A stretch of 64,000 nt of DNA from NCBI RefSeq assembly GCF_030408635.1, contig NZ_CP047198.1, positions 372,001-436,000 of the forward strand, written 5' to 3'. How positions within the stretch are numbered: position 1 is the stretch's first letter; the number at the start of each line of letters is the position of its first letter. The DNA is from Corynebacterium coyleae. Lineage in GTDB: Bacteria; Actinomycetota; Actinomycetes; Mycobacteriales; Mycobacteriaceae. This document shows positions 5,095 through 61,651 of this stretch, piece by piece. The translations under genes and the position numbers were made by a program. The notes beneath the pieces were generated by a model, which made no database searches, had not been told where the DNA came from, and saw only the letters and a list, made by a program, of their open reading frames with translations.

Positions 5095-5107
5095 GTCGTC
5101 GATAAGC
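5095..5107 (+). repeat. Dispersed 13-mer (GTCGTCGNNAAGC orientation), intergenic
   Basis: Exact match to the dispersed word discussed in the findings, in the gap between tRNA-Tyr and tRNA-Thr, which holds no other recognisable feature apart from the terminator. Confidence 0.8.
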
Positions 5108-5217
5108 ATGTGCAAAAACATCGGCTGTACTGGCGATTTGTGTTTATAAACGATATCGGGTTAATCTTCTCAAGGCTTCAACGGAGCGGGTCGCAAGATC
5201 CACAACAAAGAGGCTGT

Positions 5218-5290
5218 GCCCCCTTAGCTCAGTCGGCAGAGCGTTTCCATGGTAAGGAAAAGGTCGACAGTTCGATTCTGTCAGGGGGCT
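5218..5290 (+). tRNA. tRNA-Thr (GGT)
   Basis: A 73-nt cloverleaf: acceptor GCCCCCT pairs with AGGGGGC, D arm AGCTCAGTCGGCAGAGC, anticodon loop ATGGTAA (anticodon GGT), T arm ACAGTTCGATTCTGT. Confidence 0.95.
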
Positions 5291-5340
5291 CTGTTGTTTG
5301 CTGGGGTCCTTGCACTTCGTGCGAGCGTCAGTGAACACAT

Positions 5341-5412
5341 GGCGGTGTAGCTCAGTGGTAGAGCAAGCGACTCATAATCGCTGTGTCGAGAGTTCAATTC
5401 TCTCCATCGCTA
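5341..5412 (+). tRNA. tRNA-Met (CAT)
   Basis: A 72-nt cloverleaf with anticodon loop CTCATAA. The acceptor stem GGCGGTG/CATCGCT holds two G-U pairs. The first base pair forms, which fits an elongator rather than an initiator tRNA. Confidence 0.93.
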
Positions 5413-5475
5413 CTCACCTCAAACGGACGTCACAAGCGCCCGTGGTAGGGTTAGGCGCACCGAATAAGGTGCCCT

Positions 5476-5548
5476 AGGGGCGTGGCGCAATTGGTAGCGC
5501 AACGGTCTCCAAAACCGTAGGTTGCAGGTTCGAGTCCTGTCGCCCCTG
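5476..5548 (+). tRNA. tRNA-Trp (CCA)
   Basis: A 73-nt cloverleaf: acceptor AGGGGCG/CGCCCCT, anticodon loop CTCCAAA, T arm GCAGGTTCGAGTCCTGT. It lies 24 bases before secE, the usual actinobacterial arrangement. Confidence 0.95.
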
Positions 5549-5572
5549 CCAAAACAACCTGGAGGAGTTTTC

Positions 5573-5890
5573 GTGACTAACCCCAACGGTCAGAATGCCG
5601 CACAGCCAACCGGCAAGCGCCAACTGCGAGGGGTCTCGCCCGTGTCCTCCGACGGGTACGAAGCAAAGCGCACCCCCGTCAATGCCGACGAGGCCGAGGA
5701 AAAGACCACCAGCATCGCAACCTTCCCGGGCGAAGTCGTCTCCGAGATGAGCAAAGTCATCTGGCCGACCGGCAAGCAGATGCTGAACTACACGCTGATC
5801 ACATTCGCGTTCCTCATCGTGCTCACCATCCTCGTCTGGGGCACCGACACCCTCGCTTCCATGGGGATTCGCTGGATTCTCATCCGATAA
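5573..5890 (+). CDS. secE: Preprotein translocase subunit SecE
   Basis: A 105-residue single-span SecE. The N-terminal half is polar, followed by the family segment VVSEMSKVIWPTGKQ, then one transmembrane helix ending near the C terminus. SecE clamps SecY in the SecYEG channel (secY is at 59720 here). GTG 5573 is chosen because it follows a strong GGAGGAG site. The longer frame would begin inside tRNA-Trp. Confidence 0.94.
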   Translation: MTNPNGQNAAQPTGKRQLRGVSPVSSDGYEAKRTPVNADEAEEKTTSIATFPGEVVSEMSKVIWPTGKQMLNYTLITFAFLIVLTILVWGTDTLASMGIRWILIR

Positions 5891-5912
5891 GTACAATTTC
5901 ACGCGTAACGTT

Positions 5913-5953
5913 TCCCGCCACCTCGAACACCGAGGGAAGGCGGGATACTTTTT
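5913..5953 (+). terminator. Terminator or attenuator between secE and nusG
   Basis: Stem TCCCGCC/GGCGGGA encloses an inner hairpin CCTCG/CGAGG and is followed by ACTTTTTG. Since secE and nusG are usually co-transcribed, it may only be partly effective. Confidence 0.65.
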
Positions 5954-6001
5954 GCCCCGGTAACCTTGGGGCACACCCGCGAACATACGAGGAGAACAAC
6001 C

Positions 6002-6898: not shown

Positions 6899-6911
6899 GC
6901 TTATCGACGAC
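6899..6911 (-). repeat. Dispersed 13-mer (GCTTNNCGACGAC), intergenic after nusG
   Basis: Exact match 10 bases after the nusG stop and 20 bases before the terminator stem. Confidence 0.8.
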
Positions 6912-7562: not shown

Positions 7563-8273
7563 ATGGCTAAGAAGTCCAAGCGTTACATTGAGCAGCTCGC
7601 CAAGGTGGACCGCGACGCGTTCTACCACCCGCTGGATGCGGTGACCCTGGCAAAGGAGACCGCTTCCGGCAAGTACGACGCAACCATCGACGTTGCGATG
7701 CGTCTGTCCGTCGACCCGCGCAAGGCTGACCAGCTGGTCCGCGGCACCGTCAACCTGCCGCACGGCACCGGTAAGACCGTCCGCGTCGCAGTCTTCGCTG
7801 AGGGCGAGAACGCCACCAAGGCGAAGGAAGCAGGCGCTGACATCGTCGGCACTGACGAGCTCATCGAGCAGATCAACGCTGGCCAGCTCGACTTCGACGT
7901 AGCTATCGCTACGCCGGACCAGATGGCTAAGGTCGGCCGCGTCGCCCGCGTGCTCGGCCCGCGTGGTCTGATGCCGAACCCGAAGACCGGTACGGTCACC
8001 CCGGACGTCGCTAAGGCGATCCAGGACTCCAAGGGCGGCAAGATTGCCTTCCGCGTGGACAAGGCATCGAACCTGCACGCAATCATCGGTAAGGCTTCCT
8101 TCACCCCGGAGCAGCTCGCTGAGAACTACGGCGCGCTTCTCGACGAGGTCGTTCGCCTCAAGCCGTCTTCCGCCAAGGGTGTCTACCTGAAGAAGATCAC
8201 CGTGTCCGCAACCCAGGGCCCGGGCGTTCCGGTTGATACCTCTGTGGAGAAGGACTACGCCAAGAAGGCATAG
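7563..8273 (+). CDS. rplA: 50S ribosomal protein L1
   Basis: 236 residues, complete. L1 forms the mobile stalk near the E site that helps release deacylated tRNA, and in many bacteria represses its own operon by binding the mRNA. The diagnostic segment [17 protein letters not shown] is present near residue 135. The start ATG 7563 is preceded by GAAAGGAATC. A terminator follows at 8292. Confidence 0.97.
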
Positions 8274-9982: not shown

Positions 9983-11502
9983 AGCGCGCCAAAGCTATAG
10001 CGGCCCTCGGGTTGGTTGCGGGTCTGGTGGGCTGCGCGCAGGCGGACGGTGCGGTGGATGATGGCCGGTTGCGTGTGGTGGCGTCGACAAGCATTCTCGC
10101 GGATGTCGTGCAGAATGTCGCCGGCGATGCCGCTGACGTCAACCCGTTGATGCGTCGCGGCGCCGACCCGCACTCGTATGAGCCGACCCTGCACGCCACG
10201 CGCGACATTGCCTATGCGGACGCCGTGTTCACCAACGGGCTGTTGCTGGAGCCGCAAGCATTGAGCCGCACGATCGAGTCGACGGCGCGACCCGACGCGC
10301 GTGTAGTGGCGCTCGCCGAGCAGACGCAGCGCTACGGTTACGCCCCGATCCCGCTGGTCGAGGACGCGAGCTTGGACACCGTGTGGTTGGGCCTGCGGTT
10401 CGAGGGCGACCTGCCCGCCACCGCGGTCACCGAGCTTTCGCTTGTCGACGCCACCGGCCCCGGCAAAGCTTTCGCCTTCATCCTCGGCACGTTTGGCACA
10501 CCTGAGTTGCTCTTCGACTCCGACGGCGGCTCGACCATGCTGCCGGCGGGTGCGCACACGCACGTGAGTTGGGCCTTTTCAGCGCCGGGTGTGTACGAGT
10601 TGCGGCTGCGCGCGTCGGTGCGCGACGCGGTCGATGCGCCGGAGCGCAGCTCCGCCGAGCAAACCGTGACGGTGGTTGTCGGCCAGGACCCGGCACAGGT
10701 CGCGCCTGGGAAGGTGGCGATCGAGCATGGTCACGTGGACATCGCCACGCTTGTCGACGACACCACCACCCACCTGACCCTTCGCACCGACGACCACAGC
10801 CACCCCGGCCACACCGACATCAACCCCGCCGATGCCGTCGTTGTCGTACCCACAACCACCCTGCAGCCGATCCCGCCACAGCGCGAGTTCCGCTTCCTGG
10901 GCAACCCGGACGATGAGACCTACCTGCTGCCGCAGGCGGTACTCGGCCGTCACGTGCACGGCGAGCTAGACCCGCACATCTGGCACGACCCGGCCGCGAT
11001 GAAAGCGGTGGTTGACGTGGTGCGCGACGAACTGTCCGCCATCGACCCGTCACGCGCCAGCCAGTTCGCGGACAACGCCAAGCGCTACCAGTCGCTTCTC
11101 GACGACACCGACCGCACCGTCCGCGCCATGTACGACTCCATCCCCGAAACCAACCGCAACCTGGTCACCACCCACCACGGCTACGCCTACCTCGGCCGCG
11201 CCTACGGGCTGCGCATCGCAGGCTTTGTCACCCCGAACCCGAGCGTGGAGCCAAGCCCGCGCGACCTGCTGGCACTCTCGCGCACTTTGGACAACCTCGA
11301 CGTGCCGGCCGTGTTCGTCGAGTACGGCAGCGAACAAGAAACGCCTGTGCTCAACCAAACGGCCGCCCAGCACGGGGTGAACGTGTGCCCGATCTGGGGC
11401 GACTCTCTCGACCCGCCCGGTCAGGGGCCAGCGCAAACGTATGTGGACTTTGTGCTGGCCAATGGGTCGTCGATTAGTAACTGCTTGAAAGGACAACAAT
11501 GA
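9979..11502 (+). CDS. Anchored repeat-type ABC transporter, substrate-binding lipoprotein (zinc type)
   Basis: 507 residues. A lipobox ending at Cys19 (GLVGC) is followed by the N-terminal half of a ZnuA-type fold (VASTSILADVVQNVAG, DPHSYEPTL). At about residues 118-322 a surface-repeat domain is inserted, with GPG, HTHVSWAFSAPGVYEL and LPQ blocks, and then the fold resumes with LDPHIWHDP, TTHHGYAYLGRAYGL and WGDSLDPPG. The third ligand is His, as in zinc-binding proteins. The insertion sits where ordinary ZnuA proteins have a His-rich loop. GTG 9979 overlaps the preceding stop (GTGA). This matches the family defined as anchored repeat-type substrate-binding protein (TIGR03772). Confidence 0.88.
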   Translation: MKRAKAIAALGLVAGLVGCAQADGAVDDGRLRVVASTSILADVVQNVAGDAADVNPLMRRGADPHSYEPTLHATRDIAYADAVFTNGLLLEPQALSRTIESTARPDARVVALAEQTQRYGYAPIPLVEDASLDTVWLGLRFEGDLPATAVTELSLVDATGPGKAFAFILGTFGTPELLFDSDGGSTMLPAGAHTHVSWAFSAPGVYELRLRASVRDAVDAPERSSAEQTVTVVVGQDPAQVAPGKVAIEHGHVDIATLVDDTTTHLTLRTDDHSHPGHTDINPADAVVVVPTTTLQPIPPQREFRFLGNPDDETYLLPQAVLGRHVHGELDPHIWHDPAAMKAVVDVVRDELSAIDPSRASQFADNAKRYQSLLDDTDRTVRAMYDSIPETNRNLVTTHHGYAYLGRAYGLRIAGFVTPNPSVEPSPRDLLALSRTLDNLDVPAVFVEYGSEQETPVLNQTAAQHGVNVCPIWGDSLDPPGQGPAQTYVDFVLANGSSISNCLKGQQ

Positions 11503-12338
11503 AAAAGATTCCAGCCCTCATCACCGCCGCCATGATCGCGGCCGCACCCGCAGCAACCGCCCAGGTACAGGACAACAACCCTGCCCTGCAACAAGTCGTT
11601 GACGCCAACGAAACGATCGCGCCGGAAGGGGAGCGCACCGTCATCGACGCAGGCCACGTTGACCTCGGCCCCATGTTCGTGGACGGCAACCTGCAATTCC
11701 TCGCCCGCGACGACACCCACGAACCCGCCATGTGGCGCCACCTCAACGACGTCGTCTTCGCCGTCGGCGACGCCGCCAAGCAAACCCTGCCCGACACCAA
11801 CGACTTCGACTTCACCGGCGCCAAACCAGGCTCCGACGTATGGGTCGTGCCCCAAACCGAAGTCGCAGGCGTGCCATGGCTGGGCTGGAACTCCCAAGCC
11901 CCCTCGCTGCTCGAGCGCTCCACGTCCGGCATGAGCCTCGAATTCGCCGGCCACGACGGCCCTGGCGACTTCTCCCTCTTCGTCCAACCCGGCGGCTTCC
12001 ACGAACCGCAGCAACTGTGGAACTCCCGCACCGAAGGCGACCAGTCCATGTGGGTCGAACCCAACACCCACACCCACGCCAACTGGGTGTTCACCGAGCC
12101 GGGCGTGCACCTGATCAAGGTGCGCGCGAAGGTGGAGGACACTGACGGCCAGGTGCACACCGACGAGCAGGTGCTGCGCCTTGCGGTCGGCGTTGACCCG
12201 CAGGAGGCGTTCGACGCGGAGTTTGCGGGCGCCGGGGAGGGGGCGTCGTCGTCAAGCAATGTGCTCCTGTTCGCAGGCTTGGGTGTGCTCGTCCTGGCGT
12301 TGGTGGCGTTCGCGGTGGTGTGGGGGCGTCGTAAGTGA
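11499..12338 (+). CDS. Small surface-anchored repeat protein of the metal transporter operon
   Basis: 279 residues: signal peptide (1-22), one surface-anchored repeat domain (GHVDLGPMFVDGN, then LPD, VPWLGWNSQ, GHDGPGDFSLF and HTHANWVFTEPGVHLIKV), and a C-terminal transmembrane helix ending in GRRK. No LPxTG or LAxTG motif is visible, so it is probably held by the membrane helix alone. ATG 11499 overlaps the preceding stop by 4 bases. Its role is unproven. Placement suggests that it hands metal ions, or a metal-carrying ligand, to the split lipoprotein. Confidence 0.82.
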   Translation: MKKIPALITAAMIAAAPAATAQVQDNNPALQQVVDANETIAPEGERTVIDAGHVDLGPMFVDGNLQFLARDDTHEPAMWRHLNDVVFAVGDAAKQTLPDTNDFDFTGAKPGSDVWVVPQTEVAGVPWLGWNSQAPSLLERSTSGMSLEFAGHDGPGDFSLFVQPGGFHEPQQLWNSRTEGDQSMWVEPNTHTHANWVFTEPGVHLIKVRAKVEDTDGQVHTDEQVLRLAVGVDPQEAFDAEFAGAGEGASSSSNVLLFAGLGVLVLALVAFAVVWGRRK

Positions 12339-13084
12339 TCACAATCCGCGACCTTGCCGTGTCCTACCCGGGACGTGAAGTGTTTCAGGGCGTGGACGTC
12401 ACGCTCAACGGCGGCGAATTCACCGGCCTGCTCGGGCCGAACGGCGCAGGCAAAACGACGCTGATGCGTGCGATGCTCGGGCTCGTACCCGCCGACGCAG
12501 GCACCGTCGAGACGACCGACTCGCGTCCGATCCGCGACGTCGTCGGCTATGTGCCTCAACGCCACAACGTCGCGTGGGATTTCCCAATCGACGTCTACAC
12601 CGCCACCCTCAACGCCACGCTTGGGAAGCGCCCCTGGTACCGCCGCGCTGGCGAACGCGACCGCATGTGGGCGCAGCGTGCGCTTGAGATGGTGAACCTT
12701 GCAGACCTCGCCGACCGCCCCATCAGCGACCTGTCCGGCGGCCAGCGCCAACGCGTGCTCATCGCGCGTGCTTTGGTGCGCCGTCCGCGCATGCTGCTTC
12801 TCGACGAACCCTTCACCGGCCTCGACATCCCCACCACGGAACATTTGCTCGGGCTGTTTCGTGAGCTCGTCGATAAGGGCCTGGGCGTTGTGATGTCCAC
12901 CCACAACATCGTCGAGGCCGTCGAATCCTGCGACCGTCTCATCCTGTTCAAAGGCGGCATCGTGGCGGATAGCCCGACGCGCCTGCTTAACGACGACACC
13001 CCCTGGATGCACACCTTCTCCGTCGGCCCCGACTCACCGTGGCTACGAGGCGTGCGCGCACACCTGGAGGCCGCCCATGCCTGA
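12335..13084 (+). CDS. Anchored repeat-type ABC transporter, ATP-binding subunit
   Basis: 249 residues, with Walker A GPNGAGKTT (about 36-44), YVPQRHNVAWDFP (Q loop), LSGGQRQR signature, Walker B LLLDEP and switch His in MSTHN. It is related to the manganese/zinc importer ATPase at 8-733 but clearly diverged. GTG 12335 overlaps the previous stop (GTGA), and the stop overlaps the permease start by 8 bases. It would drive transport by the permease that follows. Confidence 0.9.
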   Translation: MITIRDLAVSYPGREVFQGVDVTLNGGEFTGLLGPNGAGKTTLMRAMLGLVPADAGTVETTDSRPIRDVVGYVPQRHNVAWDFPIDVYTATLNATLGKRPWYRRAGERDRMWAQRALEMVNLADLADRPISDLSGGQRQRVLIARALVRRPRMLLLDEPFTGLDIPTTEHLLGLFRELVDKGLGVVMSTHNIVEAVESCDRLILFKGGIVADSPTRLLNDDTPWMHTFSVGPDSPWLRGVRAHLEAAHA

Positions 13085-13937: not shown

Positions 13938-16171
13938 AGTTGAACCGACTTGTGACGCTGGTCGTCGCTACGCTTGCGTTTGCTGTGGCACCACTGGCGC
14001 AGGCGAGCAGCGAGCACAAACCCGGCGACCCCGGCCACAGCGTGACCCTCGACGCGGACGTCGACCACCCGTGCGCCGGCCGCAAACTGCTCTACCACTC
14101 CCACAACGACGCCCTTTACGGCACCCGCTCCGGCGGCAAGCTGGCAGTCATGGCGGTGGACGGCCAACAGGTCACCTCCCAGGACTCCGTGTGCTTCCGC
14201 CTCGCCCCAGACGCGGACGCCGACGGCAACGACCTGTCCAAACTCACCATCCCCGACGACGGCACCCTCGACTTCCTCGGCCCCCGCGGCAGCGAAGTCT
14301 GGGCAGCGCCGCAAAGCGTGGACTGGACCGACAACTGGCGCCCCATCTGGTCGGGCCTCGGCGCATTCGACCCCGCCCACGAACTCGACCCCACGTCGAT
14401 CCCCACCAACTTCAAAGACGACGTCATGCACTTCGACCTCGTCGACATGGATGCGCCCGGCGACATCAACGTCATGTTCACCAGCCGCGTCTACGAACCG
14501 GAGCGACTGTTCGACTCCTCCAACCCAGACATGCGCACCATCACCTACGAAGTCGGCGGCCACGGCCACTTCACCTGGACGTTTTCCAAACCAGGCATCT
14601 ACGCGCTGACGTGGCAAGGCCGAGCCGAGCGTACCGACGGCACCACCGAACGCTCCGAACCCATCACCCAATACTGGCTTGTCGGCGACGACGCCACCGT
14701 CGGCCTGCCCGAAGGCACCACCACGGGCCTGCGCACCCCAAAGTCGGCATCCACACCCACTGACGCGCAACCGACCACGTCGGCGACTACCACGGTGGCC
14801 ACCACGGCACCGACCTCACCAAAGGCCTCCACGTCGGCGCAGCCAACTACCACCGCGACCACCACGTCGGCGCAGCCCAAGCCGGCACCAGGCACCTCCA
14901 CACCCAACGCCGCAGCGAAGGAGCGCGCGCTGATCAAGGCGGGTCATATGGATATGGCCTTGGTGGGGGAGGGGTCGTCGTTAAGCACAGTGCTCATCGA
15001 TGATTCCGACCCCCTCCACCCGGCGCACCGACCCTCCGGCAGCTTCATCTTCGCCGTGCCCGACAGTGCGCGCACCGACCTGCCCGATAGCGTGCGCGAC
15101 AGCTTCCCTGGCAGCCCAGCGCAGATGTGGATACTGCCGCAAGCACAGGACAAGAACCTGCCATGGCTGGGCTTTTCCACCACGGGAGTGCCCGCGAGCG
15201 CGATTGAGGAAGGCAGCCGGATCACGGTAAGCATGCGCGACGTCACCGGCCCGGGCCGCCTGATGACATGGCACGAGGATCTGCGAGGCCTGCGCATCGA
15301 ACTGGATTCGGGCGACCCGTCCAAAACGCTCCAATACCCGGTTAACGCCCACGACCACCAGGGCTTTGGGTTCACCGAGCCGGGCATCTACACGGCGACG
15401 TTCGTGTATTCCGGCACCACGCGTGACGGTGAGGCGTTTGAGAAGGAACTCGTCGCAACGTTTGCAGTTGGCGACGACGCCATCACCAACGCCCCAACCA
15501 ATCCCGACGACACCGATAACGCAGGCAGCACGGGCAACGCGGGCAAAAGCCTGAACGTCCCACAGGCGTTGGCGGCGGGTCTGCGGCAGGTGGAGAAGGA
15601 GATCAAGAAGTTTGGCGACGCCATCGCGCCAGCCGCAAAACCGTCCACGAAGCCGTCTGCGCAGGCGACCACACAGCGGGCGACACGGCCGACGACACGG
15701 CCGAGCAACCAGGCAACTTCTCGCCCCTCGCGCACCGCTGCACCTGCGGCCCCGGCAACCGCTGCCCAGTCGGCCCAGTCGGCCCAGTCGGCTCGATCGG
15801 TGAGTACTGCGCGTGCTGCACAGGCTGCACCTCGCAGTCAGGCGGCGGCTCAATCCACGGCGAAGCAGTCTCCGACGAGGCGTGCGCAGGCAAGCCGTGC
15901 AGCGTCATCGCAACTATCGACGAGCACTAGCGCCCCCGCCACAACCTCCGCCCCTTCGCCGGAGCCCTCACCTGAGTCTGCGTCCGATGCTTCGGGCAGC
16001 GGGATTCATGCAGCGCAGCCCGTCGAAGGCACGAGCAACTCCGCGACGGCCGGCGGCTTCTGGGCTGGCCTCGCGATTGGTGTTGGCATCATGGCGCTCA
16101 TCGGCGGCGCAGTACTGTTTGTTGCCGCGCTGAAATTGCTCCGTCGCGCTGAGCGGCACGACGAGCACTAG
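13934..16171 (+). CDS. ABC transporter-associated repeat protein, two surface-repeat domains
   Basis: 745 residues. A signal peptide (1-24) is followed by repeat domain one (about 30-255, with a C-A-G start and HGHFTWTFSKPGIYAL), a Thr/Ala linker, repeat domain two (about 330-515, GHMDMALVGEGSS, WILPQAQDKNLPWLG, GPGRLMTW and HDHQGFGFTEPGIYTA), then about 190 residues rich in Ala, Ser, Thr and Pro that could span the mycolate cell wall. It ends with a transmembrane helix and Arg/His tail. The family is TIGR03773-like. ATG 13934 is chosen, since upstream in-frame residues only duplicate the permease region. It ends convergently with the HNH gene, with 3 overlapping bases. Confidence 0.85.
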   Translation: MKLNRLVTLVVATLAFAVAPLAQASSEHKPGDPGHSVTLDADVDHPCAGRKLLYHSHNDALYGTRSGGKLAVMAVDGQQVTSQDSVCFRLAPDADADGNDLSKLTIPDDGTLDFLGPRGSEVWAAPQSVDWTDNWRPIWSGLGAFDPAHELDPTSIPTNFKDDVMHFDLVDMDAPGDINVMFTSRVYEPERLFDSSNPDMRTITYEVGGHGHFTWTFSKPGIYALTWQGRAERTDGTTERSEPITQYWLVGDDATVGLPEGTTTGLRTPKSASTPTDAQPTTSATTTVATTAPTSPKASTSAQPTTTATTTSAQPKPAPGTSTPNAAAKERALIKAGHMDMALVGEGSSLSTVLIDDSDPLHPAHRPSGSFIFAVPDSARTDLPDSVRDSFPGSPAQMWILPQAQDKNLPWLGFSTTGVPASAIEEGSRITVSMRDVTGPGRLMTWHEDLRGLRIELDSGDPSKTLQYPVNAHDHQGFGFTEPGIYTATFVYSGTTRDGEAFEKELVATFAVGDDAITNAPTNPDDTDNAGSTGNAGKSLNVPQALAAGLRQVEKEIKKFGDAIAPAAKPSTKPSAQATTQRATRPTTRPSNQATSRPSRTAAPAAPATAAQSAQSAQSARSVSTARAAQAAPRSQAAAQSTAKQSPTRRAQASRAASSQLSTSTSAPATTSAPSPEPSPESASDASGSGIHAAQPVEGTSNSATAGGFWAGLAIGVGIMALIGGAVLFVAALKLLRRAERHDEH
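15764..15790 (+). repeat. Three tandem 9-base units in the linker of the repeat protein
   Basis: The unit GCCCAGTCG occurs three times in a row and encodes Ala-Gln-Ser repeats in the Ala/Ser-rich stalk. It is likely a slippage-prone length-variable site. Confidence 0.85.
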
Positions 16172-17223: not shown

Positions 17224-17330
17224 GCCTAAGACGCTAAACCGTCAACAGAGAAAGTGCACCTGGCCTGTGGATAACTGGGCGTGGAATCGTCGAAAAGCAG
17301 TCGAAAAGCAATGGCTTATCCACAGGCAAT

Positions 17331-18550: not shown

Positions 18551-18563
18551 GCTTTTCGACGAC
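18551..18563 (-). repeat. Dispersed 13-mer (GCTTNNCGACGAC), intergenic after rplL
   Basis: Exact match 10 bases after the rplL stop and directly abutting the terminator stem. Confidence 0.8.
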
Positions 18564-23387: not shown

Positions 23388-23419
23388 GGTCGTCGTAAAG
23401 CAATTGCTTGTCGACGACC
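23388..23419. repeat. 32-base palindrome of two dispersed 13-mers between rpoB and rpoC
   Basis: GTCGTCGTAAAGC (23389-23401), AATT, then GCTTGTCGACGAC (23406-23418) form an inverted repeat whose only unpaired bases are the two wobble positions of each word. It lies 9 bases after the rpoB stop and would fold in the rpoBC mRNA. No T tract follows, so it is not a normal terminator. Confidence 0.8.
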
Positions 23420-29252: not shown

Positions 29253-29307
29253 AAACCCCGAAACTGCATATGTGTCCCTATGTGGGGCCGGCGTTTTCGG
29301 GGTTTTC
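29253..29307 (+). terminator. Terminator-like structure between rpsG and fusA
   Basis: AACCCCGAAA pairs with TTTCGGGGTT around a 31-base internal part that can itself fold, followed by TTTTCG. A one-mismatch copy of the dispersed word (29305-29317) overlaps its T tract. Since fusA usually belongs to the same operon it may be partial. Confidence 0.6.
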
Positions 29308-40424: not shown

Positions 40425-40700
40425 ATGCCACGTAGCCTTAAGAAGGGCCCGTTCGTCGACGAGCACCTCCTCAACAAGGTGGATGCTCAGAACGAGGCAG
40501 GCACCAAGCAGGTCATCAAGACCTGGTCGCGCCGTTCGACCATTCTCCCCGATTTCATCGGTCACACTTTCGCCGTCCACGACGGTCGTAAGCACGTGCC
40601 GGTGTTCGTGGACGAGTCCATGGTTGGCCACAAGCTCGGCGAGTTTGCACCGACCAAGACCTTTAAGGGTCACGTCAAGGAACAGAAGGGACGTCGATAA
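40425..40700 (+). CDS. rpsS: 30S ribosomal protein S19
   Basis: 91 residues. S19 with S13 contacts 23S rRNA across the A site. The start [15 protein letters not shown] is diagnostic. A one-mismatch copy of the dispersed word lies across its last codons and stop (40690-40702). rplV starts 3 bases later. Confidence 0.96.
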
Positions 40701-40703
40701 GCA

Positions 40704-42761: not shown

Positions 42762-42774
42762 GCTTCTCGACGAC
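42762..42774 (-). repeat. Dispersed 13-mer (GCTTNNCGACGAC), intergenic after rpsQ
   Basis: Exact match GCTTCTCGACGAC, 10 bases after the stop and 4 bases before the terminator stem. Confidence 0.8.
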
Positions 42775-48097: not shown

Positions 48098-49931
48098 TGT
48101 CGGACCCCTTTCGGAAGTTGCCGCGAAGCTGGTCAAACAGGCCACGCAGGGCGCTGTTGTTCAGGTCGTCGTTGGGGGTGTCGTCGATACGCGCAGGCAC
48201 TTGCTTGTCGACGACCCCCAGCAGCTTCGCATCCACCGCCCGGCGAGCCTGCTGGGAGGCATCGCGGATCTGCTCGGCCGTTGCGCCTTCGAGCAACGGG
48301 TCGGTGAACACGTGGTAGCGGTCGCGCTCGGCAGCAAAGAGTCCACCAAGGCGCTCGTTGAGGTCGTTGCGGGCCTGAGTGACCATGCGGCGCACCGTGT
48401 CTTCGCCGAAGATGGTCTCCAAAAGTTTCTGGCCAAGTACCGCAGAACCGCCCGCGATGGCCACCTCGCCGCCAGTCAAACCAGCGGTGGAGGCGAACAC
48501 TGTAAGCATGAGTGCCACGGTGACCACGTTGAGCCCAAAGGACATGAGACGGGCGCGCTGACGCTTATCGCCAGCAGTGTCCTGGATATGTCCGACGAGT
48601 TCTTGCTGCCAGTCTCGCACCAGTTTCGCCGCCTGTTCGGAAATGTCGGCGCTGGCGCGTGCGAGAGCCGGATCGGCGTCGGTGCGCAGCTCAGGAGCGA
48701 CCGCGCCGGTATGCGCCCAGGCGCGCGATGCTGCGGATTCGGCAGCATCGACGATGACTGCGTGCAGACCGGACTCGATCTCGGTCTCCACCTCACGCAG
48801 GGGAGCGGGCTGACCGGTGAAGAAACTGCCCACCTTATCTATTGCGCTGCTGAACCAGCGCTCGAATCCACGGAACACGTCAGAGGTACCGATGACGTCC
48901 TGCCAGCGGTCCATGACCTCGGAGCGCAGCAACTGTCCGTCGGAAGTCGCGTCGATGACCTGACGGTTGGCGGTGGTGTAAAACTCGTGGATCGATGCGT
49001 CGAGCTGGTTGGCAAACGCCTCCTGACGCTCACGGCGGCCGACCAAGGTATCCACTCGATCAAGCGCAGTCTGAACCGCGCCGGCCACAGTCTTGCCAGC
49101 CACGTCGCGCCGGGCGACGGTGTCCTCGGCGAGTGTGGTCAGGTAATCGCGCAGTGAAGCGACAAGGTCTTCGGCGAGAAACTCCCCGGACTCTCCAGAC
49201 TTCTCCGCGCCAAGGTCCGCGACGAACGGCACAGTAAAGACTGTTGCGTCGTGCAAGCCAGCCTCATTCATCATGCGGCGCAGATCGTCCGGCACGGTTT
49301 CGGCAGCCTTTTCGTCCAGGCGGTTGAGGACCACCACAACCTCAATGCCGCGGCCAGCGGCGTCGTGGAGGAAGTTCCACACAAGTTGATCGGCGTAGCG
49401 CGCCGGGGTGGTGACGAACACCCACAGATCCGCAGCCGCAAGGAGCTGACTTGCCAGGGCGCGGTTTTTGTCGTCGATGGAGTCGAAATCGGGGGCGTCG
49501 AGAAGCGCAAGGCCCTCGGGCACGCTTTGCGTATCCACGACTCGCAGCGTCGTCGATTGCTCGTTGCCCGCGCCGTGCGAGCGCGTCAGGCCTGGCAGTA
49601 CCTGTGGGGAGTTAAACCAATCAGCATCTGCTGGGTTTGCCACTAGCACTGGCTGCCGGGTGGTGGGGCGGATGACGCCTGGGTTGGAGACCCGCTCGCG
49701 CAGCAATGCATTGACAAGCGTGGACTTACCAGAGCCGGTGGAGCCGCCGATCACGGCGAGCAGCGGCGCGTCCAGGTTGGCGAGGCGGGGCAGGACATAG
49801 TCGTCGAGCTGGTTGACAATTGCGCGGGCCTCTGGGGCTGCATCAATAGGTAGGGCAGTGTCCGCGAGGGCTTCGCGAACACTGCGAACAGCTTCGAGGA
49901 CGTCAGGTGTCTGGGTACTCACCCGTCTCAT
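48084..49931 (-). CDS. Dynamin-like membrane GTPase (first of pair)
   Basis: 615 residues. G1 is GGSTGSGKSTLVNALL (about residue 60), G3 contains LLDAPDFDSIDDKN, and G4 is LNRLDEK. A hydrophobic pair of helices lies near residues 465-500 (LMLTVFASTAGLTGGEVAI). It is homologous to the next gene, and the two probably form a heteromeric membrane-remodelling pair, as seen for some tandem bacterial dynamins. ATG 49931 is used. GTG 49922 is possible. Confidence 0.85.
   Translation of the reverse strand: MRRVSTQTPDVLEAVRSVREALADTALPIDAAPEARAIVNQLDDYVLPRLANLDAPLLAVIGGSTGSGKSTLVNALLRERVSNPGVIRPTTRQPVLVANPADADWFNSPQVLPGLTRSHGAGNEQSTTLRVVDTQSVPEGLALLDAPDFDSIDDKNRALASQLLAAADLWVFVTTPARYADQLVWNFLHDAAGRGIEVVVVLNRLDEKAAETVPDDLRRMMNEAGLHDATVFTVPFVADLGAEKSGESGEFLAEDLVASLRDYLTTLAEDTVARRDVAGKTVAGAVQTALDRVDTLVGRRERQEAFANQLDASIHEFYTTANRQVIDATSDGQLLRSEVMDRWQDVIGTSDVFRGFERWFSSAIDKVGSFFTGQPAPLREVETEIESGLHAVIVDAAESAASRAWAHTGAVAPELRTDADPALARASADISEQAAKLVRDWQQELVGHIQDTAGDKRQRARLMSFGLNVVTVALMLTVFASTAGLTGGEVAIAGGSAVLGQKLLETIFGEDTVRRMVTQARNDLNERLGGLFAAERDRYHVFTDPLLEGATAEQIRDASQQARRAVDAKLLGVVDKQVPARIDDTPNDDLNNSALRGLFDQLRGNFRKGSDNGAV
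48203..48215 (-). repeat. Dispersed 13-mer inside the first GTPase gene
   Basis: Exact match GCTTGTCGACGAC, encoding Val-Val-Asp-Lys-Gln in the gene, so the word is read in the opposite direction from most genic copies. A second related word GTGTCGTCGATACGC lies 24 bases upstream, giving an inverted pair. Confidence 0.75.
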
Positions 49932-49984: not shown

Positions 49985-50766
49985 TAACCGGTCTTGGTCA
50001 GGTTCAGCCATCCGTAGAGGCCGCCCATGATGAACCCGCCGCCGACGAAGTTGCCCAGCCAGACGACCACCCAGTTGCGGATGACGTTCCAGTTGGTGAA
50101 GCCTTCGATGGTTTCAGGGCCGAGCGTAAACCCGCCCAGGCTGGTGAGGATGAAGTTCGCGATGGAGTGCTCGTAGCTCATGGTGGCAAACGACGGGATG
50201 ATCAGGATGACCCCCCACAGCTTCGCGCTGAAGTCCTTGCCGGCCTGGGTGGCCAGCATGAAGGCGATGTTGACCACGACGTTTGCCAGGATCGCTTCAA
50301 CGAACAGGGTGGAACTGGATTTTTGCAGCTTGGCGACGAGCAAATCGTGGAGGAATCCGTCCACCTCGACCATCTGGCCCATGGTGGTCCGGGAAATCAG
50401 CCATGAAATCGCCACTGCACCAATGAGGTTGAACACGGTGACAAAGAAGACGAGGAGGAACCCGCGGGTGATGGTGTTGAGCCTATGGATGGCGCCATAG
50501 GTCATGAACATCATGTCACCTGTGGCGAGTTCGCCTTGCAAGACGATGATGATGTACAGCGTTGACGCGAAGATGGCACCGAAGGCGTATTTGCCCCAGC
50601 CGGGGGCGTAGCCGTCGAGTAGTTGTGCCGTGGATGCGGCGAATGCCGTCATGATGCCCAGGTACACGCCCGCGAGTACGGAACGCGTGGCAAATCGGGC
50701 AGGTTCTGTCGAGAACAGATCGACCTTATTCTTGATTGCCTCGGGGGCGGCTTCGTAGAAACTCAC
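49975..50766 (-). CDS. Formate/nitrite transporter family channel
   Basis: 263 residues of a FocA/NirC-type pentameric channel with about six transmembrane helices. Family segments include GKYAFGAIFASTLYIIIVLQ, ELATGDMMFMTYG and NWVVVWLGNFVGGG. It would move formate, nitrite or a similar small anion. The start is uncertain: GTG 50766 (VSFYEAAPEAI) or TTG 50775, three codons upstream. The window also has an OFA-type transporter and an FdhD-like protein, so a formate or oxalate theme is possible. Confidence 0.88.
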   Translation of the reverse strand: MSFYEAAPEAIKNKVDLFSTEPARFATRSVLAGVYLGIMTAFAASTAQLLDGYAPGWGKYAFGAIFASTLYIIIVLQGELATGDMMFMTYGAIHRLNTITRGFLLVFFVTVFNLIGAVAISWLISRTTMGQMVEVDGFLHDLLVAKLQKSSSTLFVEAILANVVVNIAFMLATQAGKDFSAKLWGVILIIPSFATMSYEHSIANFILTSLGGFTLGPETIEGFTNWNVIRNWVVVWLGNFVGGGFIMGGLYGWLNLTKTGYKD

Positions 50767-51549: not shown

Positions 51550-51811
51550 GTATCTTCAGGCGACACGATTTAGCGGCAATTTGGGCGATCGGCGCTGCTC
51601 ATGGTTAAATACTCCAGTTGTCTACTGCTGGTCGGGCGTGACACGCGTTTCCGAGTGAAGCGTCCGAGACCCTTCGACCAGACTGCGCTCTCCTCGTGTG
51701 CGAGGGACGAGCGCGCGAGGTTCGTCGATAAGCAATAGGCCGCAAGAACATTGACCACGTGCGTTCAGGACGGAAATCTGGCGCACATTGACCCAGGTCA
51801 GGAGACCAACT

Positions 51812-54776: not shown

Positions 54777-55531
54777 GCGCCCGAGTACACGCTGAAGCGC
54801 TCGTCGGTAATTGCGCCGACGAGCGCTGTATTTGTTTCGCGGGCCAATTCCACCGCCATCGACGTGACGTCGCGTGTGGTGGCGACAATGCCGAAGCCGG
54901 CCGCTGCTGCAGCACGCATCATTTCAAACGTCACGCGCGTATCCACTGCGAGGGTGAGGTTGTGGGCGGGCAGGGTGTCGTCGAGAAGCAAACGCCCAGC
55001 GATCTTCTGTACCGCGTTGACAGCGTCGATGTCTTGACGCGCGGTCTCGCCAGCGAGCGCGGTGGGTAGGTCGCGACGACGCGCCTGGTTGAGACGTTCT
55101 GGGAAGGCGAAGATCGCATCCTGATCAATAGGGGCGAACTCGCTGCGCACGTTCAGGCGGACCGCCAACTCCCGTACGCGCTGCTCGGCAGAAATACCAC
55201 AGGACTGGGATGGGATTGGGTCGATGAACTGCGGTGCAGCAGGGTAGGAAAGCTCGATATCGAGCAGGTTGTAGGTGTTTTCGCCGCCGATGGCACCTTC
55301 GCAATAGCGAGCGGTAATGACGTCTTTAGGGGTGGTAATGAGGCCCTGCGTCAGGAGCACACCGTGGGCGAGTTCGATGTCGTGGCCCGGGGTGCGAAAC
55401 AACTGAGCGACCTCTCGGCCACCGGCGCGCACCTCGAGTGGTTCTTCCACTTCCACTTGGCCCGCGCGCGTGTCGCGGGTGCCGCTAGCGGAAATCTTTG
55501 TGACGGCGAAACTGCGCTTGGTCCTGCTCAT
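54773..55531 (-). CDS. FdhD-like sulfurtransferase with lost conserved motifs
   Basis: 252 residues. FdhD transfers sulfur to the molybdenum cofactor of formate dehydrogenase. N-terminal family segments are intact (EEPLEVRAGG, RTPGHDIELAHGVLLTQGLI, and NLLDIELSY). The functional CxxC motif is reduced to CGIS: the second cysteine is Ser. The usual GG.HAA stretch is missing and the EDVGRHN region is altered to RQDIDAVN. Activity is doubtful. ATG 55531 is the start. No formate dehydrogenase gene is in the window. Confidence 0.8.
   Translation of the reverse strand: MSRTKRSFAVTKISASGTRDTRAGQVEVEEPLEVRAGGREVAQLFRTPGHDIELAHGVLLTQGLITTPKDVITARYCEGAIGGENTYNLLDIELSYPAAPQFIDPIPSQSCGISAEQRVRELAVRLNVRSEFAPIDQDAIFAFPERLNQARRRDLPTALAGETARQDIDAVNAVQKIAGRLLLDDTLPAHNLTLAVDTRVTFEMMRAAAAAGFGIVATTRDVTSMAVELARETNTALVGAITDERFSVYSGA
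54978..54990 (+). repeat. Dispersed 13-mer inside the FdhD-like gene
   Basis: Exact match GTCGTCGAGAAGC, encoding Leu-Leu-Asp-Asp. Confidence 0.75.
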
Positions 55532-55723: not shown

Positions 55724-56440
55724 ATGCGTACCGAGGAAAAGATCAAACAACGAGTACAAAAACTACTCAATCAAGCCAACGACAGGGAAGGGACACCGGA
55801 GGGTGACGCGTTCTATGCCCGAGCATTCGAGCTGATGGCACAGTACGGCTACGACGAGCGCGATCTTGCAAGTCCCGATGCTGGCGACAACGTAGGCCAC
55901 CGCGCCTACACGTTCCGCGGCGCCTACACCGATATGCAGGCAACGCTGCTGCACTCCATCGCGAGGTCGTTGCACTGCACGGGCTTTACGCAGCGGGTGT
56001 ATAACTCCACGCGCGTCATGGACGCAGACATTTTTGGCCTTCAGCGACACCTCGACCGGGTGGACATGCTCTACGCGCTGTTGTTGCCGGTGATGCTTGC
56101 AGAATCACAAAAGATCCGCGCCACCAACTTCGGGGAATCGGTCGTGGTGATGCGTCGGTCGTTTATGCAGGGGTTCGCGACAAGCATCGGCAAACGTCTG
56201 ATGAAAGCTGAAGAGGGCGCAGCAAAGGGGGATAGCGAATATGCGCTTGTGCTTGTCGACGACGCCGCAAAGGCCGAGCAAGCCCGCTCCAAATTCGCCG
56301 AAGAGCAGGGCTTTGTGCTCTCCGCGCACCAAACCAACCGCTCGTTCGACCCAGGTGCGTACCTCAGCGGACACGCCGCGGGAGAGAATTCAGACCTCGG
56401 CCAAACACGGGTGAAGTCCAGGGCGGCGCTGCCGTTCTGA
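55724..56440 (+). CDS. DUF2786 domain protein
   Basis: About 238 residues. The N-terminal DUF2786 domain (IKQRVQKLLNQAND then AFYARAFELMAQYGYDERDL) occupies residues 1-50. The rest resembles a zinc-free or degenerate metallopeptidase-like helical domain often fused to DUF2786 in phages and actinobacteria. Function unknown. The start is uncertain: ATG 55724 is used, and GTG 55715 or ATG 55700 are possible. The dispersed word is inside at 56251. Confidence 0.7.
   Translation: MRTEEKIKQRVQKLLNQANDREGTPEGDAFYARAFELMAQYGYDERDLASPDAGDNVGHRAYTFRGAYTDMQATLLHSIARSLHCTGFTQRVYNSTRVMDADIFGLQRHLDRVDMLYALLLPVMLAESQKIRATNFGESVVVMRRSFMQGFATSIGKRLMKAEEGAAKGDSEYALVLVDDAAKAEQARSKFAEEQGFVLSAHQTNRSFDPGAYLSGHAAGENSDLGQTRVKSRAALPF
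56251..56263 (-). repeat. Dispersed 13-mer inside the DUF2786 gene
   Basis: Exact match GCTTGTCGACGAC, encoding Leu-Val-Asp-Asp. Confidence 0.75.
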
Positions 56441-56764
56441 TCAATTCGGTGTCGGGAGATGCTGACGGGGGCTAGGTGTCGTCGTTAAGCAATTTGGTTC
56501 TGAGCGAACAAGCAGGTAACTTGGTCGATCGGACTTGTGCGCCGAGATTTCGGCGTGCCAAGCCGAGAGAAACATTTGAACATCCAACTTTGTTGCAGGC
56601 CCCTCGCCAAGATGCGGACCGCGTGCAAGGGAGGCGGCGAGCGGCCCACGCTACTGAGTGTGGGCAGCGTTGAGTAGCCCCCGATAGACCATGCGGAAAA
56701 CGCGACCTTGAAAAGGGTCAGGTGGGTTTAGGGAACCGCAACGAGAAAGGAAACGGTCACCACA
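56441..56764 (+). promoter_or_regulatory. 324-base upstream region of rpsH
   Basis: No gene is seen. It holds an exact dispersed word (56478-56490) and presumably the promoter of the rpsH operon, though no clear -35/-10 pair stands out. GAGAAAGGAAAC precedes rpsH. Confidence 0.4.
56478..56490 (+). repeat. Dispersed 13-mer (GTCGTCGNNAAGC), intergenic
   Basis: Exact match GTCGTCGTTAAGC upstream of rpsH. Confidence 0.8.
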
Positions 56765-57718: not shown

Positions 57719-57720
57719 TC

Positions 57721-58798: not shown

Positions 58799-58803
58799 GA
58801 ACA

Positions 58804-58989
58804 ATGGCACTGAAGATTACGTTGCACCACGGCAAGATCGGTGAGAAGCCGGTGACCCGCAAGAACCTCGAGGCTCTCGGTCTGCGCAAGATCGGTCAGT
58901 CCGTGGTGAAGAAGGACAACGCTGCTACCCGCGGCCAGATCCTCAAGGTGCGTCACCTCGTCACCGTCGAAGAAGTTGCAGGGGAGTAG
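58804..58989 (+). CDS. rpmD: 50S ribosomal protein L30
   Basis: 61 residues. The core [20 protein letters not shown] is typical. It starts 5 bases after rpsE and rplO begins 7 bases after its stop. Confidence 0.95.
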
Positions 58990-58996
58990 ATAAAAC

Positions 58997-59473
58997 ATGG
59001 CTGACATCATCAAGCTCCATGATCTGCGCCCGGCAGAGGGCGCAAACAAGGCCAAGACCCGCGTTGGGCGCGGTGAGGCCTCCAAGGGCAAGACCGCTGG
59101 CCGCGGTACCAAGGGCACCAAGGCTCGTAAGCAGGTTTCCGCTGCTTTCGAGGGTGGCCAGATGCCGCTGCACATGCGTCTGCCGAAGCTCAAGGGCTTC
59201 AAGAACCCGAACCGCGTCGAGTACCAGGTGGTCAACGTCGCGGACCTCGCGGAAGCATTCCCGCAGGGTGGCGACATTGCAGTTGCCGACATCGTCGCTA
59301 AGGGCCTCGTTCGCCCGAAGCAGCCGGTGAAGGTGCTGGCAGAGGGCGACATCAACGTCGCACTCAACGTCACCGCAAACAAGTTCTCCAAGTCCGCTGA
59401 GGAGAAGCTCAAGGCTGCTGGCGGCTCCGCCACCGTCGTCGAGTTCTCCAAGCGCGCTCCGAAGGACGCGTAA
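58997..59473 (+). CDS. rplO: 50S ribosomal protein L15
   Basis: 158 residues, slightly long for the family. L15 is a late assembly protein. The glycine-rich start [20 protein letters not shown] and [18 protein letters not shown] are typical. The terminator at 59511 follows. Confidence 0.96.
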
Positions 59474-59510
59474 AGAGCCGAAAGCGTAACGCTTTCCGCG
59501 CTTGAGATAG

Positions 59511-59549
59511 CCCCCATACTGGACAATCACTGTCCGGTGTGGGGGTTTT
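59511..59549 (+). terminator. Terminator between rplO and secY
   Basis: A 15-bp stem with G-U pairs (CCCCCATACTGGACA/TGTCCGGTGTGGGGG), loop ATCAC, then TTTT. A smaller hairpin GAAAGCG/CGCTTTC precedes it. Confidence 0.85.
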
Positions 59550-59719
59550 CGCTGTGCTGTAGCGGTAAAGTCGACCGTGAGTATCAACTTTTTAAGCACA
59601 GCTGCTAGGGTAGTGGGGTCAAACACGGCGACGGCCCGTTTTGTGTGCCTTCATGCACGAGTCGGCGCTGCACTATCCACTACCTTCCGCCGCGGTTCAG
59701 GTGGAAGCCAGGAGGCTAT

Positions 59720-61048
59720 GTGTCCGCAATTGCTCAGGCGTTTAAGGATCCTGACCTTCGCAAGAAGATCTTGATCACCCTTGCGCTGATGATTCTGTAC
59801 CGCGTAGGTGCCCAGATCCCGTCCCCGGGCGTTGATTACGCGTTGATCAACCAGCGACTCGAAGAGGTTGCCCAGGGTGACCGTGCCACGATGTTCTCCA
59901 TCATTGGCCTGTTCTCCGGTGGTGCACTGCTGCAGTTGTCGATCTTCGCGATCGGCATCATGCCGTACATTACGGCGTCGATTATCGTGCAGCTGCTCAC
60001 TGTCGTGATCCCGAAGTTCGAGGAGCTGAAGAAGGAAGGCCAGTCCGGCCAGGCGAAGATGACGCAGTACACGCGCTACCTCACGGTCGCGCTGGCGTTG
60101 CTGCAGTCCGCAGGTATCGTCGCGCTGGCAGACCGCGAGCAGCTGCTCGGCCAGGGAATGCCGGTGCTGGTGGAAGACCGCAATGTCTGGACCTTGATCA
60201 TGATGATCCTTGTGATGACCTCCGGTGCGGTGCTCATCATGTGGCTCGGCGAGATCATCACTGAAAAGGGCGTGGGCAACGGTATGTCCCTGCTCATCTT
60301 CGCGGGTATCGCAACCCAGATCCCGTCCGAGGGTGCGTTCATCCTCCAGAACTCCGGTGCCTTGACGCTGATCCTCGTCATCCTTGCGCTTATTGCGCTG
60401 GTCGTCGGCATTGTCTTCATTGAGCAGGGCCAGCGTCGTATCCCGGTGCAGTACGCCAAGCGCATGGTGGGCCGTCGCCAGTACGGTGGTTCTTCCACCT
60501 ACTTGCCGCTGAAGGTCAACCAGGCTGGCGTTATCCCGGTCATCTTCGCCTCGTCGCTGATGTACGTGCCGGTTCTGATCACACAGATCGTGACCATGAA
60601 TAACCCGACTCCGCCGGACAACTGGTGGATGAACCACGTGATGGCATGGCTGCAGAACCCGGGTTCGTGGCAGTACATCCTCACCTACGTCGTGATGATC
60701 ATCTTCTTCTCCTACTTCTATGTGTCGATCCAGTATGACCCGGTCGATCAGGCAGAGAACATGAAGAAGTACGGTGGCTTTATCCCGGGTATCCGTCCGG
60801 GCCGTCCGACTGCTGAATACCTCGCGTTCGTCATGAACCGCCTGCTGTTCGTCGGCGCGATTTACCTCGCGCTGATCGCAGTGCTGCCGAACCTGGCAAT
60901 GGACGCCGGTATCACCGGCTCCGGCCGGATGGGTATGAGCGCGTTTGGCGGTACAGCCATCCTGATTATGGTTTCCGTGGCCCTGACCACGGTTAAGCAA
61001 ATTGAATCCCAGCTTCTGCAATCCAACTACGAAGGACTTCTGCGATAA
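59720..61048 (+). CDS. secY: Preprotein translocase subunit SecY
   Basis: 442 residues with ten transmembrane helices. Forms the protein-conducting channel. Family segments: [31 protein letters not shown] and the cytoplasmic loop [23 protein letters not shown] 59720 follows CAGGAGGC. It is followed by adk with a TAATG overlap. Confidence 0.97.
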
Positions 61049-61593
61049 TGCGTCTCGTTCTCCTTGGCCCTCCCGGTGCCGGCAAGGGCACCCAAGCCGC
61101 TATCCTTTCCGAAAAGCTCGGTGTTCCGCACATCTCCACCGGTGATCTGTTCCGCGCCAACATTGGCGAGGGCACCCCGCTCGGTGTTGAGGCAAAGAGC
61201 TACATCGACGCCGGCAAGCTTGTGCCGACCGATGTCACCGCACGCATGGTTGAGGATCGCCTGAACCAGGACGACGCGAAGGACGGCTTCCTGCTGGACG
61301 GCTTCCCGCGCACGGTGGAGCAGGCTGAGATCCTGACCGACCTACTGGCGAAGAAGGGCGAGAAGCTCGACGGCGTGCTCAACTTCGTTGTTGATGAGGA
61401 CGTTGTCGTGGAGCGCATGCTCGCCCGTGGTCGTGCAGACGACAACGAGGAGACCATCCGCACCCGTCTCGCCGTGTACCGCGATGAGACCGCACCGCTG
61501 ATCGATCACTACGGTGAGGAGATCATTTCTATCGACGCTGTGGGCGACGTCGACGAGATCAACCAGCGCGCCATGGCGCAGCTGGGCAAGTAG
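61048..61593 (+). CDS. adk: Adenylate kinase
   Basis: 181 residues. It balances ATP, ADP and AMP. P-loop [10 protein letters not shown] at residues 7-16, STGDLFR and DGFPRT. The lid is the short form without zinc cysteines, as usual in actinobacteria. It overlaps the secY stop by one base. A terminator-like hairpin follows before map. Confidence 0.96.
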
Positions 61594-61606
61594 CCCGAAT
61601 ACGTTC

Positions 61607-61638
61607 AAGGCCGGTGTTCGCACCGGCCTTTCGCTTTT
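61607..61638 (+). terminator. Terminator-like hairpin between adk and map
   Basis: A 10-bp stem AAGGCCGGTG/CACCGGCCTT with loop TTCG is followed by TCGCTTTT. Confidence 0.75.
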
Positions 61639-61651
61639 GCTTATCGACGAC
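61639..61651 (-). repeat. Dispersed 13-mer (GCTTNNCGACGAC), intergenic
   Basis: Exact match GCTTATCGACGAC immediately after the terminator-like hairpin and 22 bases before map. Confidence 0.8.

Follow-up and report, generated by a model that had tools for sequence, protein, structure and literature searches.

A repeated short word of Corynebacterium, GCTTNNCGACG, as a probable DNA uptake sequence for natural transformation

Why should a single short word be scattered in both orientations through the chromosome of Corynebacterium coyleae? The question is raised by a stretch of 64,000 nucleotides (the window; bases 372001-436000 of a genome that forms one contig of 2,508,772 bases, NZ_CP047198.1), in which the 13-mer GCTTNNCGACGAC has 23 exact copies, 12 on the plus strand and 11 on the minus strand. 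Dinucleotide shuffles predict 0.08 copies, and none of 100 shuffles holds more than one. The initial annotation had put the chance expectation far below one copy and had called the orientation balanced, and both statements hold. The 13-mer is an extended form of a shorter core, GCTTNNCGACG, which has 39 exact matches in the window. In the whole genome, the 13-mer occurs 549 times (262 plus, 287 minus) against 12 for its reversed-pattern control, and the core 1193 times (581 plus, 612 minus; control 88), a density of about one per 2.1 kb. Genome sequences make it probable that the core serves natural transformation in Corynebacterium as a DNA uptake sequence.

The word stands out even when no pattern is supplied. 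In a codon-controlled, pattern-free word search of the C. coyleae genome the top word is GCTT..CGACG, found 61 times where 3.8 are expected. In genomes G000, G111 and G004 (G numbers denote genomes) the top word is GCTT..CGACG or GCTT..CGATG, with top z scores of 18.7 to 26.8, while no comparable word emerges from 60 to 180 kb samples of six motif-less genomes (G014, G152, G133, G010, G128 and G163; top z 7.5 to 9.8). A longer profile comes from the 113 copies in a 464 kb sample of the C. coyleae genome, made up of the window and 20 spread stretches. It has T before GCTT in 58% of copies, then mostly A or G, T in 60%, and CGACGAC; the bases that follow are rich in C, and offset 15 is C in 87% of copies. 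The core is often extended in this genome to T-GCTT-[AG]-T-CGACGAC-nCC.

Within genes, the word is not a consequence of codon choice. In the 464 kb sample, 88 genic 13-mers are observed, whereas shuffling the synonymous codons of each gene 200 times gives 4.0 on average and never more than 11; 55 of the 88 lie on the coding strand and 33 on the opposite strand, where 2 are expected. Between genes there are 24, against 0.03 in the shuffles. Gene calls come from a simple program based on codon usage, written for the analysis, so the genic and intergenic borders are approximate. The excess over chance that the initial annotation had seen in the window is confirmed for the whole genome and for genes under a codon-preserving expectation; neither outcome named there as refuting, a count no greater than such an expectation or loss of the pattern beyond the window, is observed. 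A preferred reading frame, CTT-NNC-GAC-GAC, encodes L-x-D-D and accounts for 53 of the 88 genic copies. LxDD peptides are about twice as frequent as in shuffled proteins (105 against 49.2, standard deviation 7.6), and their Leu is encoded by CTT in 84 of 105 cases, even though CTT is a minor codon (1304 of 11539 Leu codons). Since LxDD is in excess and CTT is preferred there, the word seems to bend protein sequences instead of arising from them. The density of core sites is lowest, at 0.277/kb, in the fifth of genes with the strongest codon score (0.47 to 0.83/kb in the others), a scarcity in strongly constrained genes that is also a trait of uptake sequences.

The word is not confined to C. 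coyleae. Both the core and a one-base dialect, GCTTNNCGATG, were counted in 201 genomes of the genus. Class A genomes are those with a core count of at least 3 times the control plus 60, and class B genomes those with a GATG count of at least 200. Class A holds 138 of the 201 genomes, with between 280 and 1964 copies each (median 1095, against a control median of 65.5), and class B holds 13, with 211 to 1337 copies; one genome, G143, meets both definitions. It contains 1337 copies of GCTTNNCGATG and 352 of GCTTNNCGACG, perhaps a dialect switch in progress or a double specificity. The other 51 genomes belong to neither class, some with a residue, such as G092 (285 against a control of 78, in a 77% complete genome) and G062 (134 against 61). 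The AC extension that turns the core into the 13-mer of the initial annotation is a local accent: it is present at 0.46 of the core sites of C. coyleae, 0.49 of those of G016 and 0.38 of those of G089, and the median in class A genomes is 0.09.

Outside the genus, 149 other genomes of the same order were counted for the 13-mer only, and none has more than 51 copies, most being at or below the reversed control; a few genomes of one family are slightly above it, for example G317 with 17 against 3. A further 35 named genomes, reached through their Tad loci, were counted with GCTTNNCGAYG. Of 25 named Corynebacterium, 22 exceed 250 copies, among them C. pilosum (1969), C. haemomassiliense (1456; control 115), C. 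bouchesdurhonense (1261), C. urinipleomorphum (1189), C. pseudodiphtheriticum (1004), C. lemuris (919), C. phoceense (694) and C. alimapuense (440). Low counts are found in C. meridianum (157; control 70), C. pygosceleis (144; 53) and C. phocae (75; 41). The ten other Actinobacteria (Rhodococcus, Nocardia, Mycolicibacterium, Actinophytocola and Kitasatospora) have 169 to 498 copies with controls of 225 to 504, the highest relative to its control being R. erythropolis (498 against 281). Presence throughout a lineage, with dialects, is characteristic of uptake sequences.

In a tree of TadA plus helicase with 45 rows, in which dialect labels were set from the counts and named loci were checked on their own 15 to 21 kb, the class B rows fall inside one clade of 17 that also holds class A and motif-less members, so parsimony needs at least two changes between A and B; the class B genome G073 is outside this tree. 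Within the tree, G004, a class A genome with 921 GACG and 125 GATG words, groups with support 100 with the class B genomes G006, G105 and G153, which have 964 to 1021 GATG and 68 to 97 GACG words. G004 and G006 align over 107 kb with 82.2% identity. The aligned stretch holds 82 core sites of G004, of which 29 are unaligned or gapped. Of the remaining 53, 35 are GATG at the same place in G006, one is GACG, 5 are one base off either word and 12 are more than one base off. In the reverse direction, 17 of the 78 GATG sites of G006 are unaligned or gapped, and the other 61 correspond in G004 to GACG (35), GATG (6), a word one base off (7) or a more distant one (13).

This difference is specific to the motif. 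CGACG in G004 corresponds to CGATG in G006 in 37 of 55 motif contexts against 72 of 428 others (Fisher 3e-14), and is kept as CGACG in 2 of 55 against 107 of 428; over all aligned Asp codons, GAC becomes GAT in 350 of 1076. Twenty-seven of the 35 in-place changes are silent in Asp and two in Ala, two are intergenic, and four replace Val by Ile; among all GTC codons this exchange affects 64 of 879. All eight remaining fixed bases are retained in 36 of the 53 aligned sites, whereas 400 shuffled words keep theirs in 128 of 535 copies. Conservation is also evident between the window and G016, which align over 25.4 kb with 87.4% identity. In the 15 of the 39 window core sites that can be aligned without gaps, all nine fixed bases are kept 13 times, against 36 of 93 copies of 300 shuffled words, while the two N positions vary (identity 0.60 and 0.73); in the other direction, the window retains 13 of the 18 core sites of G016 that can be aligned. 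Evolution in place by point mutation and conservation at the word are both traits of uptake sequences. Since the one-base difference arises in place and the same change is much rarer outside the motif, the pattern points to a sequence-specific reader that acts across the genome. It is what a trans-acting reader with one-base specificity predicts, and not what insertion elements, codon bias or terminators predict. The initial annotation, which assigned no function, had likened the word to DNA uptake sequences or binding sites, a likeness that the dialect difference strengthens.

If the word is an uptake sequence, it would be bound on free double-stranded DNA by a receptor of the uptake machine; the likeliest candidates are a part of the conserved Tad/Flp pilus and ComEA. 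DNA from the same species, or from one using the same dialect, would then be preferentially imported through ComEC and recombined. Alleles carrying the word would be taken up more often, and the word would accumulate by molecular drive until coding constraint stops it. A one-base shift in receptor preference, from GACG to GATG or the reverse, would let the drive rewrite hundreds of sites in place and so produce dialects. What we infer here is that a protein reads the word, that this reader belongs to the uptake machine, that these species transform and that molecular drive is at work. The broader proposition is that about 150 of the 201 sampled Corynebacterium species carry out sequence-specific natural transformation across the mycomembrane via a Tad/Flp pilus, using a reader of another kind than ComP. 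Dialect switches of one base, which drive would impose in place on hundreds of sites, would then open or close gene flow between close species and even bend their proteins; the balance tips only slightly in its favour.

Known uptake systems provide the standard of comparison, among them the DNA uptake sequence (DUS) of Neisseriaceae, which is read by the minor pilin ComP. Strong uptake preferences for short words are restricted to two proteobacterial families, Pasteurellaceae and Neisseriaceae, and most tested competent species show none (PMC7811141). Known uptake sequences originate by point mutation and drive, and are scarce in newly acquired and in strongly constrained DNA (PMC7811141). The DUS is a word of 10 to 12 bases; it has counts such as 2245 to 4549 per genome and eight dialects that follow phylogeny, and five genomes of the family have no obvious DUS (PMC3630211). 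Like the DUS, the Corynebacterium word has many copies, genic and intergenic, and dialects that differ by one or few bases and follow lineages (PMC3630211); unlike it, it has an unrelated sequence, belongs to another phylum, is not enriched in close inverted pairs and is presumed to have a Tad/Flp reader. With the uptake signal sequence (USS) of Pasteurellaceae, which has about one site per 1 kb, it shares a point-mutational origin and scarcity in strongly constrained DNA; the USS is also scarce in acquired DNA (PMC7811141), for which the Corynebacterium word gives a mixed picture. It differs from the USS in sequence and phylum, and uptake has been measured for the USS, whereas the Corynebacterium word is known from sequence. 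Copy numbers far above codon and composition nulls, on both strands, in genes and gaps and without replichore polarity, are further traits in common, and overall the word matches those of DUS and USS except for inverted pairs, with a mixed result on atypical genes.

The machinery for uptake is encoded by the host, as judged from its genes. C. coyleae has a Tad/Flp locus with CpaE-like, TadA, TadB, TadC, Flp, TadE-like and TadG-like proteins, adjoining a helicase and topA; the names come from reading of the sequence and gene order, and TadA also from TIGR03819. Its Tad ATPase and the one of C. haemomassiliense share 86% identity. A comEA-comEC-holA cluster is also present, in which ComEC is assigned by PF03772, and ComEA and HolA by reading of the sequence. 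A related arrangement exists in another actinobacterium, Micrococcus luteus, in which tad/flp genes occur with comEA and comEC and Flp pili are required for transformation (PMC6370729). M. luteus differs in that no uptake sequence is mentioned in the accessible part of that paper, and the term is absent from the main text of PMC4322843. Uptake in Corynebacterium, if it occurs, would probably run through the Tad/Flp pilus and ComEC. Since TadA and ComEC occur in nearly all genomes, with or without the motif, their presence cannot name the reader: ComEC is found in 200 of the 201 genomes and the Tad ATPase is above the family cut-off in 192, and both were rejected as discriminating genes.

Other candidate discriminators were rejected as well. 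TadE and TadG are missing from motif-less loci by tblastn only, and small pilin-like open reading frames occupy their slot in those motif-less loci that were read directly. Lower PF00437 ATPase scores in many motif-less genomes reflect divergent TadA in some lineages and not presence or absence. A Ser in the helix-hairpin-helix of ComEA is common to eight dialect-B proteins from two clades; it does not mark those of G053 and G143, and some dialect-A proteins (G027, G029, G036 and G100) have it too. G200 has a reduced motif count and is without ComEA and ComEC; since the neighbouring holA, which is essential, is also not found there, the loss is read as an assembly gap. G138 was set aside for its shortened comEA, comEC and holA matches. 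In L247 and L253 (G138, C. phoceense) each of these matches is truncated and single Ns lie close to the joins, which is probably an assembly artefact.

Several observations weigh against an uptake sequence. Nearly the same footprint would be expected from some other reader acting genome-wide. Absence of tad or com genes does not set the 51 motif-less genomes apart (motif-less species lacking the machine being a trait of DUS and USS, but not a strict one), and in motif-less G014, G152, G133, G163, G010 and G128 both comEA and comEC are of the usual length. ComEA was not found in the 12 kb around ComEC of dialect-A G089. No Tad protein is an outlier between G004 and G006, and no ComEA column separates the dialects among 22 A and 14 B rows, two of the B rows (G138 and G200) not being intact ComEA. 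The codon-atypical fifth of genes shows no depletion, with 0.473 core sites per kb. Within genes, 193 core sites are on the coding strand and 72 on the opposite one, a lean that codon fit may explain. Close inverted pairs are not enriched, in contrast to Neisseria: the 264 core sites counted in 504 kb form 8 pairs with a gap of at most 60 bases, and about 8 are expected from density by our own estimate. Six of the eight are inverted (four -/+ and two +/-) and two direct, and the only intergenic one is 23391/23406; inverted pairs at gene ends, a common though not strict DUS trait, are not a feature of this word. Among the matches listed in a literature search, none reports that Corynebacterium is naturally transformed, a result that speaks neither for nor against an uptake sequence. 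Nor did the matches listed, which leave aside subscription papers and bioRxiv preprints, contain in their accessible parts anything on GCTTNNCGACG or a Corynebacterium uptake sequence; the accessible part of a spaced-word survey (PMC5217627) gives CRISPR words for its Corynebacterium genomes.

Among the other readers that might leave this footprint, the one that survives best is a chromosome-organising or nucleoid protein, such as a condensin loader or an occlusion or packaging factor, with a GC-rich asymmetric site. The word lies in genes and gaps, on both strands and in both halves of the chromosome, its fixed positions are conserved, and it is nearly missing from a prophage, all of which such a protein would accommodate. 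On the other hand, a genome with one to two thousand copies and a peptide motif at twice its expected frequency goes beyond what is usual for such sites, and absence from 51 of 201 congeners and a one-base difference at 35 of 53 sites are hard to reconcile with a housekeeping function; this explanation is unlikely. The prophage-like stretch was seen in bases 703001-723000 of the C. coyleae genome (L262). It opens with an integrase at base 703127 and encodes a RhuM family protein, a terminase large subunit, and portal, scaffold, major head and head-tail adaptor proteins. One core site is present in these 20 kb and 14 in the preceding 20 kb; at the sample mean of 0.484/kb, the Poisson probability of at most one site in 20 kb is 7e-4. 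Two further integrases lie in unannotated stretches, one at 1075077 with no core site in the adjoining 10 kb and one at 1984138 with 11 in the surrounding 40 kb.

A Chi-like recombination hotspot, read by a nuclease of the RecBCD or AdnAB type, would also be short, asymmetric, abundant, present in genes and lineage-specific, as the word is. Chi-like sites are usually polar with replication. The 13-mers of the 464 kb sample show no replichore bias, with 34 plus and 31 minus in one half of the chromosome and 25 plus and 23 minus in the other, the origin being assumed near base 1, and the core is balanced overall. A hotspot of this kind is a little less likely still than a nucleoid site.

Only marginally behind it is a methylation or repair word, in which a methyltransferase and mismatch bias would recreate the word and a change in specificity would make dialects. 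The C/T difference that marks the dialects fits this idea, and a precedent exists in cyanobacterial HIP1, also a short word highly iterated across its lineage and linked to a methyltransferase (PMC4390886). HIP1 is palindromic (PMC4390886), whereas GCTTNNCGACG differs from its own reverse complement and is asymmetric. The near absence of the word from a prophage of the same cell also disagrees, though the prophage may be recent. A 2-base gap is not known to fit any common bipartite methyltransferase.

The sites of the window, defined as exact matches to the core or to the 13-mer, are as follows.

241..251, minus strand, core site GCTTNNCGACG
3073..3083, minus strand, core site
3394..3404, minus strand, core site
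3601..3611, minus strand, core site
4635..4647, plus strand, 13-mer GCTTNNCGACGAC, genic, overlooked in the initial annotation
5095..5107, minus strand, 13-mer, intergenic, near tRNA genes
6899..6911, plus strand, 13-mer, intergenic
8135..8145, plus strand, core site
10082..10092, minus strand, core site
10440..10450, plus strand, core site
10749..10761, plus strand, 13-mer, genic
11094..11106, plus strand, 13-mer, genic
12245..12257, minus strand, 13-mer, genic
12796..12806, plus strand, core site
12985..12997, plus strand, 13-mer, genic, overlooked in the initial annotation
14974..14986, minus strand, 13-mer, genic
17288..17298, minus strand, core site
18551..18563, plus strand, 13-mer, intergenic
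19279..19289, plus strand, core site
23389..23401, minus strand, 13-mer, left arm of inverted pair in gap 23379-23464, which has a long open reading frame on either side
23406..23418, plus strand, 13-mer, right arm of inverted pair in gap 23379-23464
27996..28008, minus strand, 13-mer, genic
29307..29317, minus strand, core site
33325..33337, plus strand, 13-mer, genic or intergenic (ambiguous)
35456..35468, minus strand, 13-mer, genic
37114..37126, minus strand, 13-mer, intergenic
37316..37326, plus strand, core site
40692..40702, minus strand, core site
42762..42774, plus strand, 13-mer, intergenic
46028..46040, minus strand, 13-mer, genic
47456..47468, minus strand, 13-mer, genic
48203..48215, plus strand, 13-mer, genic
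49496..49506, minus strand, core site
50328..50338, plus strand, core site
51723..51733, minus strand, core site
54977..54989, minus strand, 13-mer, genic
56251..56263, plus strand, 13-mer, genic
56478..56490, minus strand, 13-mer, intergenic
61639..61651, plus strand, 13-mer, intergenic

The first inspection by eye had listed 21 exact copies, missing those at 4635 and 12985 and placing at 54978 the one at 54977. Eight of its nine one-mismatch copies are core sites, while that at 53091 holds none. Its claim of enrichment between genes is true of the window, where 9 or 10 of the 23 13-mers (33325 being ambiguous) and 14 of the 39 core sites lie in the 11.7% that is noncoding (binomial p 7e-4 or 1e-4 for the 13-mers), but fails elsewhere. 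In 560 kb from the rest of the genome, 4 kb of which are counted twice, the 29.7 kb of gaps no longer than 400 bases contain 11 core sites (0.37/kb), the 458.6 kb of genes contain 243 (0.53/kb), and other noncoding DNA has 0.125/kb. G016 shows a gap lean (1.12 against 0.85 in genes) in a sample that includes the stretch matching the window, and samples of G004, G006 and G111 show none. Given this sample and the four further genomes, intergenic enrichment is not general.

An RNA-level signal for pausing, processing or termination would draw on the coding-strand lean of genic core sites and on the single intergenic hairpin pair of the window. The many genic 13-mers on the opposite strand and the lack of enrichment of close pairs make it very improbable. 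The pair itself, in the gap 23379-23464, consists of inverted 13-mers separated by a 4-base loop, a potential hairpin between open reading frames of 1165 and 1332 residues that look, by size and order, like rpoB and rpoC. A by-product of codon use, amino-acid use or composition, to which the single L-x-D-D frame of most genic copies might be ascribed, is practically negligible in view of the codon shuffles, the intergenic copies and the choice of CTT for Leu.

Corynebacterium has an outer mycolic-acid membrane. If the word is indeed an uptake sequence, it would be a third, independent origin of such words, in an actinobacterial genus, and the strategy would be one that evolves repeatedly. It would predict natural transformation in Corynebacterium, with a bearing on gene flow among skin and airway commensals. 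The pair G004 and G006, with 82% DNA identity, makes a joint change of uptake specificity and genome words directly testable.

Two other repeats were seen in passing. The far-apart stretches L002 (5774-6036) and L003 (14553-14815) both contain GTTNAACNATC at identical spacings (241 and 21), which suggests a dispersed repeat or insertion element. In G148 (sample L036-L040 and L071-L074), which is without an uptake-like word, a CRISPR-like repeat containing CTCATCCCC has 58 copies on both strands in 180 kb.

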